A DNA stretch of 40,354 nucleotides, from the NCBI GenBank assembly GCA_001509095.1, contig LGGV01000004.1, positions 1 to 40,354 on the forward strand, read 5' to 3'. Positions 35,004 to 40,350 of this stretch are shown piece by piece. A model generated the notes under the pieces. It searched no databases, was not told the origin of the DNA, and saw only the letters and a list, made by a program, of their open reading frames with translations. Each line of letters begins with the position of its first letter. The stretch's first letter is position 1. The DNA comes from Synergistales bacterium 58_81. Its GTDB lineage: Bacteria > Synergistota > Synergistia > Synergistales > Thermovirgaceae. The position numbers were made by a program, and so were the translations under genes.

Positions 35004-35844
35004 CCCACCAATCCCCCTTCCTGATCTCCCTTGTCGGCGTGAGACCACCCAAGGGCAACATCTCCAGGAATCTGTCCCTTTCCTTCAGGGTAAGACCGGA
35101 GAAGACAGCCAGGCCCTCCTCTGTCAGAAGTACCGGTATCTCCGGTATCATCGATACCAGGGGGTCGAAAACGATATTTGCGCAGACGAGGTCCGCCTTT
35201 CCATGGATCCCTTCAAGGAGGTCTCCCGTACGGATATCCACCGCCCCTTCAGGTATGCCGTTCAGACGCAGGTTCTCCCTGATCTCGGGGATGATGGCCG
35301 GATCGTTGTCCGTGGCGATGACGCCGGATGCCCCCATCCTTATTGAGGCCACGGCAAGGATCCCCGACCCGGTACCGACATCTATGACCTTCATGCCCGG
35401 TTTGACAGTATGCTCCAGTAGTTCAAGGGCTATCTGGGTACTCTCGTGGTAGCCAGTTCCGAAAGCGCTTCCTGGATAGATGTAAAGAGGTGTTCTGCCT
35501 TCAGGCTCCTTCCCCTTATGCCAGGGAGCCATCACAACGAACCTGCCGCCAACCCCCAGGGGGGGGAAGGCATCCTTCCATGCGGTGTGCCATTGGCGGT
35601 TCTCTATCCGCCCCATATCAACGATCCTGACACCCGGCCAGGGAGTAATTACGTCCTGGACCCTTCCGATCCAGAACCCCAGGTCCCTGGTGCTACGGAA
35701 ATAGGCTTTAAGTGCTATCCCGCCCGGGAGTTCCATGATCTCAGAGCCGATACTTCCCGAGAGATCGGCCAGAGCGGACAGATCCTCTTCGTTGCCGTCC
35801 TGACCTTCGAGCGTTATATACCACCAGAACCCTTCTTCGCTCAT
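34957..35844 (-). CDS. prmA: Ribosomal protein L11 methyltransferase
   Basis: A 295-residue SAM-dependent methyltransferase modifying ribosomal protein L11. After an N-terminal substrate-recognition domain, the catalytic domain shows PGSAFGTGYHESTQ (family: FGTGTH), VIDVGTGSGILAVAS (motif I), ATDNDP and NIVFDPLVSMIPE. The ATG at 35844 overlaps the dnaJ stop (ATGA), with GGAGGT about 10 bp upstream; this fits better than the GTG four codons earlier, which abuts that site. It follows dnaJ directly, as in many Gram-positive and related genomes. Confidence 0.94.
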   Translation of the reverse strand: MSEEGFWWYITLEGQDGNEEDLSALADLSGSIGSEIMELPGGIALKAYFRSTRDLGFWIGRVQDVITPWPGVRIVDMGRIENRQWHTAWKDAFPPLGVGGRFVVMAPWHKGKEPEGRTPLYIYPGSAFGTGYHESTQIALELLEHTVKPGMKVIDVGTGSGILAVASIRMGASGVIATDNDPAIIPEIRENLRLNGIPEGAVDIRTGDLLEGIHGKADLVCANIVFDPLVSMIPEIPVLLTEEGLAVFSGLTLKERDRFLEMLPLGGLTPTREIRKGDWWGVASSRKAGVVDSGE

Positions 35845-36899
35845 GACCTTGAACACCTCCGGTTTTTCGGCTCTAAAAGAAAAGGGAGGCCGCCCGCCTC
35901 CCTAACAACATGGACGAAAAGGTCTCCCCTTCCTGAACCCCTGAGGCGAGGCATGCCTTTGCCCTTTACTCTGAAGGTCTTTCCCCCCGGGGTACCCGGG
36001 GGGATCTCGATCCTGTCTGTCCCATCAAGAGTCGGGATCTCAACTGAAGCTCCGAGCACGACCTGGGGGTACTTGAGATCAAGCCTGGTGTGCAGATCGT
36101 CCCTGTCCCTTTCGAAGAGGGGGTGGCTTTCGACCTTTATGGAGATGAAAAGATCCCCCGGAGGACCTCCCTGGGATCCCTCCATGCCCTCCCCAGCCAC
36201 ACGGAGCCTGGTCCCGGAATCCACTCCCGGCGGTATCCTGACCTCAACGGTGTGCCTGGTCCTGACCCGGCCGGATCCACCGCAGTTGGCGCAACGGACA
36301 TCTATCTTCTTCCCTGAGCCATTGCAGTCCCGGCATTGGGAGACACTTACGAAGGTCCCGAAGGGTGTTCTCTGCTGGACCTCCACCTGACCTGATCCAC
36401 GGCAGCTGGGGCAGGTCCTGACCTCCGAACCCGGTTCGTTACCTGATCCTCCGCAACGTCCGCAGGTCTCCTGCCTGGGTACAGACACCTCCCTTGTCAC
36501 CCCACTGAAGGCATCTTCAAGGGATATTGACAGGGGCACCTCTATGTTCTCGCCCCTGACAGGCCCCCTGGAGGGGTTGCCTGCGCCGCCAAAAAAGCTG
36601 TCGAAAATATCCCCGAAAATATCCCCGAAGGGTCCGAACCCTCCGAAGGGAGTCCCTCCGTGAGGTGCCTCACCCAGGGTCCCGTACTGGTCATAGGCAG
36701 CTCTCTTCTGGGGATCCTGGAGTATCTCGTAAGCAAGATTGATCTTCTTGAACCTCTCCGCAGCCTCGGCGTCGCCGGGATTGGCATCGGGGTGATACTT
36801 CCTGACCAGTTTCCTGTAGGCCTTCCTGATCTCCTCCTGTGTGGCCTCCCGGGAGATCCCGAGGGTCGCGTACAGGTCCCGGCTATCCTCAGAGGGCAC
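35841..36899 (-). CDS. dnaJ: Chaperone protein DnaJ (short C-terminus)
   Basis: A 352-residue type I J-protein, cochaperone of DnaK. The J domain (about 7-73) has the HPD motif in RKYHPDANPGD. A Gly/Phe-rich linker follows (about 78-108). Four zinc-binding repeats are intact: CGRCGGSG, CPSCRGSG, CRDCNGSG and CANCGGSG. The substrate-binding C-domains reach GDLFVHVV, but the usual last strand and helix (around VPKKLS) are missing. They are replaced by a short tail ending RRCSRS, making the protein about 20-30 residues shorter than usual. Start is GTG with GGGAG upstream, 13 bp after dnaK. Confidence 0.95.
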   Translation of the reverse strand: MPSEDSRDLYATLGISREATQEEIRKAYRKLVRKYHPDANPGDAEAAERFKKINLAYEILQDPQKRAAYDQYGTLGEAPHGGTPFGGFGPFGDIFGDIFDSFFGGAGNPSRGPVRGENIEVPLSISLEDAFSGVTREVSVPRQETCGRCGGSGNEPGSEVRTCPSCRGSGQVEVQQRTPFGTFVSVSQCRDCNGSGKKIDVRCANCGGSGRVRTRHTVEVRIPPGVDSGTRLRVAGEGMEGSQGGPPGDLFISIKVESHPLFERDRDDLHTRLDLKYPQVVLGASVEIPTLDGTDRIEIPPGTPGGKTFRVKGKGMPRLRGSGRGDLFVHVVREAGGLPFLLEPKNRRCSRS

Positions 36900-36912: not shown

Positions 36913-38739
36913 CTAGGACTTCCCGTTCTCTTCGAACTCAGCATCAACGGTTTCGCCGTCTGCGTTCTCCGCTGGCTTTTCCGGACCGGCCCCCGGTTGA
37001 CCGGCATCTTGTCCGTAAAGCCGGGAGGACATTTCGTGGAGGCTTTTGGTCAGCTTTCCACAGACTTTGCGGATCTCTCCAGGATCCTCCCCTGCCAGGG
37101 CACTGCGGACTTCCTCGATCTCACCCTGTATAGTGGCCCTCTCGGTGTCGGTTACCTTTTCGCCAAGATCCACCAACATCTTCTCGGTGCTGTAGATCAG
37201 GGAGTCTGCTTCGTTCCTGGCATCGACCAGTTCTTTCTTCTTCCTGTCGCTCTCCAGGTTTTCCTCGGCCGCACGGCGCATCTTTTCGATCTCCGCCTCG
37301 GTGAGCCTGGAGGACTGGATGGTCACATGCTGCTCCCTGGAAGTCCCCTTGTCCTTGGCTCTCACATTGAGGATGCCATTGACATCTATGTCGAAGGTGA
37401 CCTCAATCTGAGGCACCCCCCTGGGCGCAGGGGGGATCCCGTCGAGGAAGAATTTCCCCAGGGTAACGTTGTCCGCCGCCATGGCCCGTTCCCCCTGAAG
37501 GACATGGATCTCCACCTGGGGCTGATTGTCCGAAGCGGTCGAGAAGATCTGGCTCTTGGACACCGGGATAGCTGTATTACGGTCTATGATCTTGGTGAAG
37601 ACACCGCCCAGGGTCTCTATTCCAAGCGACAGGGGCGTTACGTCCACCAGTATTATGTCCTTGTGCTCCCCGGTGAGTATTGCGCCCTGGATCGCCGCTC
37701 CTACGGCAACGCACTCGTCGGGGTTGATCCCCTTTGTGGGCTCCTTACCGAGGAGCTCCACTATCTTCCTCTGGACCATAGGCATCCTGGTGGCACCGCC
37801 GACTAGGAGGACCTTGTCGATCTCCTCCCTGGTAAGCCCCGAATCGTTCAACGCCCTTCTGGTAGGCTCCACCACCCTCTCAAGCAGAGGACGGGTTATC
37901 TCCTCGAAACGCGCCCTGGTAAGGGACATCTCAAGGTGCTTGGGCCCGCTGCTGTCAGCGGTAATGAAAGGAAGCGATATGGATGTCTCCGACAAGGTAG
38001 AGAGCTCGATCTTCGCCTTTTCGGCGGCCTCGCGAAGGCGCTGAAGGGCCATCCTGTCCCTTGAGAGGTCGATCCCCTCGTTCTTCTGGAATTCGGACAC
38101 CATAAGGTCTACTATCTTCTGGTCCCAGTCGTCCCCACCAAGAAGGTTGTCCCCCGAGGTGGCAAGTACCTCGATAACTCCGTCCTCGATCCCGACGTCA
38201 AGGACCGATACGTCGAAGGTCCCTCCTCCCAGGTCGAAGACGAGTATCTTGTTCTCACCGCCCTTGTCCATCCCGTAGGCCAGGGCCGCAGCGGTAGGTT
38301 CGTTGATTATCCTGAGGACCTCCAGGCCTGCGATCTTTCCGGCATCCTTGGTAGCCTGCCGCTGGGCATCGGTGAAATAGGCAGGTACGGTTATTACCGC
38401 CTGTCCGACCTTCTCACCCAGGTATTCCTCGGCATCACGCCTGAGCTTCTGCAGGATCATCGCCGATATCTGCTGCGGGCTCTGTGAGACTCCGTCGATA
38501 TCTATCCTGTAGTCGGAGCCCATCTTCCTTTTGATAGAGGAGATGGTCCTCTCCGGGTTGACGATGGCCTGCCTCTTGGCAAGCTGGCCGACCAGCCTGT
38601 CCTTGTCCTTTGTGAATGCCACCACCGATGGGGTCGTCCTTGAACCCTCGGCGTTGGTAATGACCGTAATATGGTCGCCCTCCTTGACAGCCACACAGCT
38701 GTTGGTCGTTCCAAGATCGATGCCTATTACCTTCCCCAT
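36913..38739 (-). CDS. dnaK: Chaperone protein DnaK (Hsp70)
   Basis: A 608-residue Hsp70. The ATPase domain begins [17 protein letters not shown] and includes [32 protein letters not shown] and [14 protein letters not shown]. The interdomain linker and substrate-binding domain contain [16 protein letters not shown] and [19 protein letters not shown]. The helical lid ends in the acidic tail [11 protein letters not shown]. It works with DnaJ and GrpE encoded on either side. The 57-bp gap to grpE holds no clear promoter or terminator, so transcription probably runs from the CIRCE-controlled promoter. Confidence 0.98.
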
Positions 38740-38796: not shown

Positions 38797-39432
38797 TCAG
38801 GCGGTTCTCCTGGCAACCCTTACCCTGGCGGCCCTGAGGACCTTACCGGCAATTGTGTACCCCGGCTGGATCTCCTCGGTCACAGTCCCGTCCTCTATCC
38901 CCTCTGCGGCCTCCTCCACTGCCACAGCCTCATGTACAGTCGGATCGAAGGGTTTGCCGACGGTCTCTATGGCGGCGACGCCAAGATCCTCAAGGACCGA
39001 AAAGAACTGGTTCCTGACCATCTCGACGCCCCTGAAGAAGGAGACCGTGTCAGACCTGTCGGCCGAAAGAGCCCTGTCCAGGTTGTCGAGGACAGGAATA
39101 AGGGCTGCAGCGGCGCTCTCTCCAGCCACGGTCCTGAGTTTTTCCTGCTCGCGTTCGACCCGCTGGCGAAAGTTGAAGAAGTCGGCCCTGGCTCTCGCTA
39201 TCGCCTCGCGCAGCTCCCTGTTCTCTTCATTCAGACGTTCCGCAAGGGCCTTTGCATCCTCCAGCTCCGAAAGGAGCTCTTCATTATCGGCTGGGGCGCT
39301 CTCTTTTGCCTCTTCCTCAAGGAGCTCATCCAGATCATTATCCCCGCAGTTATCCTCTGGGGACACCCCGGCCTCCCCGCATTTCTTTTCAAAGGGAGCC
39401 CCGGGATCCTTTTTCTCCCCGGATCCGAACAT
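38797..39432 (-). CDS. grpE: Nucleotide exchange factor GrpE
   Basis: A 211-residue GrpE that releases ADP from DnaK. An acidic, low-complexity N-terminus (about 1-45) leads into a long coiled coil (about 50-100, with DFFNFRQRVEREQEK). The beta-rich head includes LIPVLDNLDRAL, GVEMVRNQFFSVLEDLGV, GKPFDPTVHEAV and EIQPGYTIAGKVLRAARVRVA. The ATG directly follows the TAA of the hrcA remnant, so it may depend on translation through that region. Confidence 0.97.
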   Translation of the reverse strand: MFGSGEKKDPGAPFEKKCGEAGVSPEDNCGDNDLDELLEEEAKESAPADNEELLSELEDAKALAERLNEENRELREAIARARADFFNFRQRVEREQEKLRTVAGESAAAALIPVLDNLDRALSADRSDTVSFFRGVEMVRNQFFSVLEDLGVAAIETVGKPFDPTVHEAVAVEEAAEGIEDGTVTEEIQPGYTIAGKVLRAARVRVARRTA

Positions 39433-40294
39433 TTAATGTACCTCCTCTTCGTCGTTCATATTCCCGTTCTTTTCTGCCAGGGTCCCCAGAACCCCTTCAA
39501 GGACCGAGATGGACCTCTCGTAATCCATTCTTACCGGCCCAATGAGACCGACGACCGCCCTCCGGCCGCCGGTGACGGTGGAAGCCATCACTATCGAGCA
39601 GTCCGGCATCTTCAGCTCGGGGTTCTCGTCACCTATGGTCACAGAGAGACCCCTTTCGGTGGAGCAGTTTCGGACCAGCCTTTCTATTGACTCATCCTCC
39701 TCGAGGAGAGCCATGATCGTCTGGAGGCGGCCCAGGTCATTGAAGTCGGGTAGACCGAGGACATTATGTGTTCCGCCTGTGAAGAACTGGAAAGGCTGCT
39801 CCGTTAGCAGGCCGTCCATCTCCTTCAGGGCGGACCGACAACTCTCGAACAAGGATCGTGCCGTGTCCCATGCGCAGGAACTCCACCCGCTGAAGGACCG
39901 TCTCCTGGGCAGGCCCGAGAGCAGCGACCCCAATGTAGCGGGTGATCCTTCCCAGGAGCCTGGTGGCGTAGACCAGGGCTTCCTCAACGTCCCTCCTTCG
40001 TTCACGGAGTTCCCTTATCCAGCCTTCGCTCCCCGAGGGGAAGGGCCTCTGTCTTCTCAGGATCGCATCCACATATACCCGGTATGCTTTTGGAGTCGGG
40101 ATCCTCCCGGCGGAGGTATGGGGCTGGTAGAGATACTCCATCTCCTCCAGGTCGGCCATCTCGTTCCTGATGGTGGCTGCGCTACGGTCTCTCAGGAACT
40201 TTCTTGCGATGGTCCTTGAACCTATGGGTTCACCGGTCCTGATGTACTCGTAGACCACGGCCAAGACCACTTCAAGATGTCTTTCGCTCAACAC
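39433..40294 (-). pseudogene. hrcA: Heat-inducible repressor HrcA, frameshifted with internal deletion
   Basis: HrcA represses CIRCE-controlled chaperone genes. The N-terminal part (GTG 40294, GGGAG about 10 bp upstream) encodes the winged helix: RTGEPIGSRTIARKF, SAATIRNEMADLEEM and SAGRIPTPKAYRVYVD. It runs to GHGTILV and then loses similarity, ending at 39764. The C-terminal part, in the +1 frame, picks up from SLFESCRSALKEM and continues with FTGGTHNVLGLPDFND, IGDENPELKMPDCSIV and GPVRMDYERSISVLE to the stop at 39433. The join is at about 39848-39855. About 55-60 residues of the middle found in other HrcA proteins are absent from both frames. This is either a true pseudogene or an assembly/sequence deletion. 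The open frame upstream to 40336 runs into CIRCE and is not the start. Confidence 0.85.
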
Positions 40295-40323
40295 TTGGAA
40301 GCAACTCCCTGTTTTTTGATTTA

Positions 40324-40350
40324 TTAGCACTCCCATTCATAGAGTGCTAA
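40324..40350. promoter_or_regulatory. CIRCE operator of the hrcA-grpE-dnaK-dnaJ operon
   Basis: TTAGCACTC (40324-40332), a 9-bp spacer and GAGTGCTAA (40342-40350) match the CIRCE consensus exactly. It lies 30 bp upstream of the hrcA start, where HrcA would bind. The promoter itself probably lies partly beyond the window end. Confidence 0.98.

Follow-up and report, generated by a model that had tools for sequence, protein, structure and literature searches.

HrcA (TIGR00331; PF03444 and PF01628) is a heat-inducible transcription repressor with an N-terminal winged helix and a C-terminal domain, and in known HrcA systems it is found together with the CIRCE operator and the gene order hrcA-grpE-dnaK-dnaJ. 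The winged helix, the ends of the C-terminal domain, the operator and the gene order were likewise found in the draft genome studied here, which is of the Thermovirgaceae type (Synergistota). However, 179 bp of the middle of hrcA are gone and its halves do not share a reading frame, most likely as a result of the assembly. In G001, a genome of the same genus, the gene order is the same but hrcA forms one full-length frame of 360 codons that includes the 179 bp.

The analysed window is the complete contig C23 (40354 bp) of a draft genome of 1.33 Mb in 148 contigs. The operon lies on the minus strand in the final 4.5 kb of this contig and is collinear with G001. A pattern search of the genome placed a CIRCE operator (TTAGCACTC-N9-GAGTGCTAA, 0 mismatches) at 40324..40350 on the minus strand ahead of hrcA, with only 4 bp between the operator and the contig end. 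Downstream of the split hrcA (39433-40336) follow, all on the minus strand, an intact grpE (38797..39432), identified from its translation and its position in the operon, an intact dnaK of 608 aa (36913..38739), taken from the ORF list and from tblastn against relatives, and dnaJ (35841..36899), for which the ORF list, NCBIfam and the alignment with G001 show that the C-terminal end is gone and replaced by out-of-frame sequence. The nearest named records of DnaK are Synergistota drafts, several of them labelled Synergistaceae or Thermovirgaceae. The same pattern search gave a second perfect CIRCE at 1512-1538 of contig C99 (L127), so that the operator is present upstream of both hrcA and groESL. 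This site follows a tsaD-like gene and immediately precedes the groES and groEL ORFs. The first-pass annotation was right in describing an intact CIRCE operon around hrcA.

The break in hrcA is confirmed in the deposited sequence by the ORFs, the family models and the alignment with G001. Two minus-strand ORFs of 190 aa each were found, 39764-40336 in the frame of the N-terminal half and 39433-40005 in the frame of the C-terminal half. They overlap by 242 bases (39764..40005, minus strand), and this interval, for which the break was originally reported, arises from the frame change and is no feature of its own. TIGR00331 (338 positions) is covered at 1-147 by the first ORF and at about 222-336 by the second, and neither half reaches the cut-off of the model. 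The winged-helix DNA-binding domain PF03444 was matched by residues 16-87 with 23.2 bits (cut-off 21). Of PF01628 (215 positions) only 1-46 and 107-215 were matched, split over two frames, and no complete PF01628 in a single frame was obtained for this hrcA. About 60 codons are thus absent from the middle of the gene.

In the alignment with G001 the N-terminal part (39847..40336, minus strand), which comprises the winged helix and PF01628 positions 1-46, is collinear over 163 codons and shows 91.9% DNA identity without gaps over 508 bp. The C-terminal part (39433..39846, minus strand), compared over 137 codons in the other frame, shows 87.6% DNA identity over 412 bp, again gap-free. Between the regions matching the two halves G001 has exactly 179 bp (3n+2), which are cleanly missing at the junction 39846..39847 (minus strand). 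This segment is present in every relative compared, namely also in G002, G003 and two relatives of the same family, and it was not found anywhere else in the assembly, which contains one HrcA locus only. When 61 genomes were searched with PF01628, 60 had a match, and all of the other 59 match essentially the whole domain. The identity of the gene, the change of frame and the estimated loss of about 170 bp (3n+2), all claimed from the letters of the contig, were borne out by these comparisons. The junction, 508 bp away from the contig end, was also looked for in IMG/VR, and no match was obtained.

The proposal that the segment was deleted between short direct repeats did not hold. At the join at most one base (C) is common to both ends, i.e., the homology is 0-1 bp. 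In the relatives, including G001, the left end is T(A/G/T/C)CTTGTT or a similar sequence, which is a near-match to the proposed repeat TCCTTGTT. At the right end they have TATGCAGA or TACGCCGA, and in five relatives no match of at least 6 of 8 bases to the repeat was found there. The repeat that had been expected at both ends of the deletion thus has a near-match at the left end only, and a deletion between two copies of it was rejected. The S-L-F of the right frame, which had been taken as plausible HrcA sequence, is not, as the relatives have Y-A-(D/E)-S-C-R at this position. A chimera in which a second strain contributed the middle segment was rejected as well, since the identity to G001 along the contig shows no step beyond its normal spread.

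A second clean junction was found in dnaJ at 35902..35903 (minus strand), on the same contig and 4 kb from the loss in hrcA. Here 160 bp (3n+1) are gone relative to G001 and about 164 bp relative to G003, and the remaining ORF matches DnaJ only up to residue 332-334. This join is located exactly at the end of a terminator-like inverted repeat (GGGAGGC..GCCTCCC), with a 1-bp indel at a distance of 12 bp.

Clean losses of this kind are not restricted to the heat-shock operon. When 336 kb of the genome (18 contigs or parts of contigs) were compared with 1.14 Mb of G001, alignments were obtained for about 183 kb, and 11 clean losses were detected on five contigs, about one per 17 kb. This sample represents roughly one quarter of the genome and a single reference relative, and the losses in hrcA and dnaJ alone were polarised with further relatives. 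Besides the two losses on C23, 55 bp are missing on C1, 167, 87, 151, 741 and 178 bp on C123, 133 bp on C126, and 174 and 68 bp on C60 (loci L136, L140, L141 and L153 for these nine). The sizes are mostly 55-180 bp, with the single exception of 741 bp, and seven of the 11 fall in the narrow range of 133-179 bp. The reading frame is ignored, as eight of the 11 lengths are not multiples of three, a proportion as expected by chance. In addition to dnaJ and hrcA, the affected genes encode a YfcC-like transporter, an amidohydrolase, 2,4-diaminopentanoate dehydrogenase and RlmD; a tex-like gene, a pirin-like gene and the small subunit of a TRAP-type transporter were assigned by sequence only. Clean losses recur in unrelated genes and on other contigs.

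In the opposite direction no comparable clean losses of G001 relative to this genome were seen in the approximately 183 kb aligned, and the few gains relative to G001 are divergent stretches that were replaced, or repeats. A gene-by-gene check, in which hits with internal stops were mostly antisense or shadow ORFs and were left out of the count, showed that several ORFs of this genome are split between frames. In the reverse check all the split cases are explained by this genome, which has additional losses or repeat-like differences there. For 10 joins, with the flanks taken from the relative, the mean microhomology was 0.2 bp compared to 0.69 bp expected by chance, and for 10 joins the losses lie closer to contig ends than expected (P about 0.02), both on small numbers. 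One of the losses on C123 (L140:2376) starts precisely where a perfect hairpin, CGGGGAGGGGCTGAGCCCCTCCCCG, ends, and sequencing or assembly may be halted by strong hairpins. As a common cause they were nevertheless discarded, because they fit two junctions (the end of dnaJ and C123:2376) and over the 10 junctions the association is not significant (p 0.06).

As clean losses of the same kind recur about every 17 kb, an assembly artefact is the most likely explanation, and we put the probability that the loss in hrcA is a collapsed assembly gap in an ordinary CIRCE-hrcA-grpE-dnaK-dnaJ operon at about 85%. Two correctly assembled pieces would have been joined directly, with omission of the 179 bp between them, for example when gaps were closed or Ns were stripped after scaffolding, or by amplification chimeras. 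The organism itself very probably has an ordinary full-length hrcA that heads a standard operon. What counts against an artefact is the size of the genome, which with 1.33 Mb is smaller than the 1.5-1.9 Mb of its same-genus relatives, so that a genuine erosion of genes can be imagined. If the lineage were streamlining its genome, the losses would be real and hrcA and dnaJ would be two of many decaying genes; the high number of small losses relative to G001, against few gains, would agree with this. However, tex, rlmD and dnaJ, which are usually kept in small genomes, are among the affected genes, single-base indels are few over 40 kb, unlike in decaying genes, and the narrow size range together with the closeness to contig ends points to technique. 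The remaining parts of hrcA and dnaJ also show normal purifying selection. In pairwise comparison with G001, the N-terminal part of hrcA has a dN/dS of about 0.09 (dN 0.028, dS 0.308) and the C-terminal part one of about 0.10 (dN 0.050, dS 0.499), similar to the adjacent genes dnaJ (0.08) and prmA (0.12). Both halves of hrcA are thus still under purifying selection, and erosion of the whole genome is very improbable.

The same values bear on a real deletion of 179 bp in the hrcA of this population. The C-terminal part is still conserved, although a real deletion would leave it untranslated or in the wrong frame; together with the two perfect CIRCE sites this means that any real loss would need to be very recent. 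A very recent event would fit the selection on both halves and the intact operators, the deposited contig does read so, and both halves are clean apart from the break, as is the operon. The truncated HrcA would consist of about 163 native residues and an out-of-frame tail. Since it would lack most of the dimerisation region, the CIRCE regulon (hrcA-grpE-dnaK-dnaJ and groESL) would be expressed constitutively, and the population of this anaerobe would live without CIRCE repression and without the C-terminus of DnaJ, its operators being intact. Cells can tolerate the loss of CIRCE repression or be selected for it: in Lactococcus lactis a point mutation in CIRCE led to a more than twofold increase in groESL expression and to better thermal tolerance (PMC4585701). 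However, ten similar-sized clean losses in unrelated genes of the sampled quarter need the same explanation, the ends carry neither repeat nor microhomology, and dnaJ of the same operon is affected as well. A real deletion is therefore unlikely, though less so than erosion. Constitutive CIRCE genes or a repressing truncated HrcA, as the first-pass annotation proposed, are unlikely because losses of the same kind recur through the assembly, one of them in dnaJ of C23; the evidence points instead, by inference, to the assembly artefact that it had named as its own refutation. Taken as a whole, that earlier interpretation is partly supported. The two overlapping ORFs could suggest that the split gene yields two polypeptides that overlap or relies on programmed frameshifting, but a 3n+2 loss produces just such an overlap, and no relative in the PF01628 search is built in this way. 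Moreover, the conserved codons of the middle are gone, so frameshifting cannot restore HrcA, and this possibility is close to negligible.

The finding in hrcA is an ordinary one: the operon is of the standard CIRCE type, and the draft that contains it most likely has collapsed gaps. A genuine loss would provide a naturally occurring example of something already understood through laboratory mutants, namely the absence of CIRCE repression. The clean losses serve as a warning, as they are blind to the reading frame, measure some 55-180 bp and occur about once per 17 kb of the compared part. At this frequency single broken genes of this draft should not be read as biology, and gene calls from the assembly need care. 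In the same-genus genome G002 a second 3' end of hrcA, 77% identical to the hrcA of the window, is found at the start of another contig (L035 on G002:C236, L033 on G002:C81), which may be due to contamination or to a second strain in the bin.
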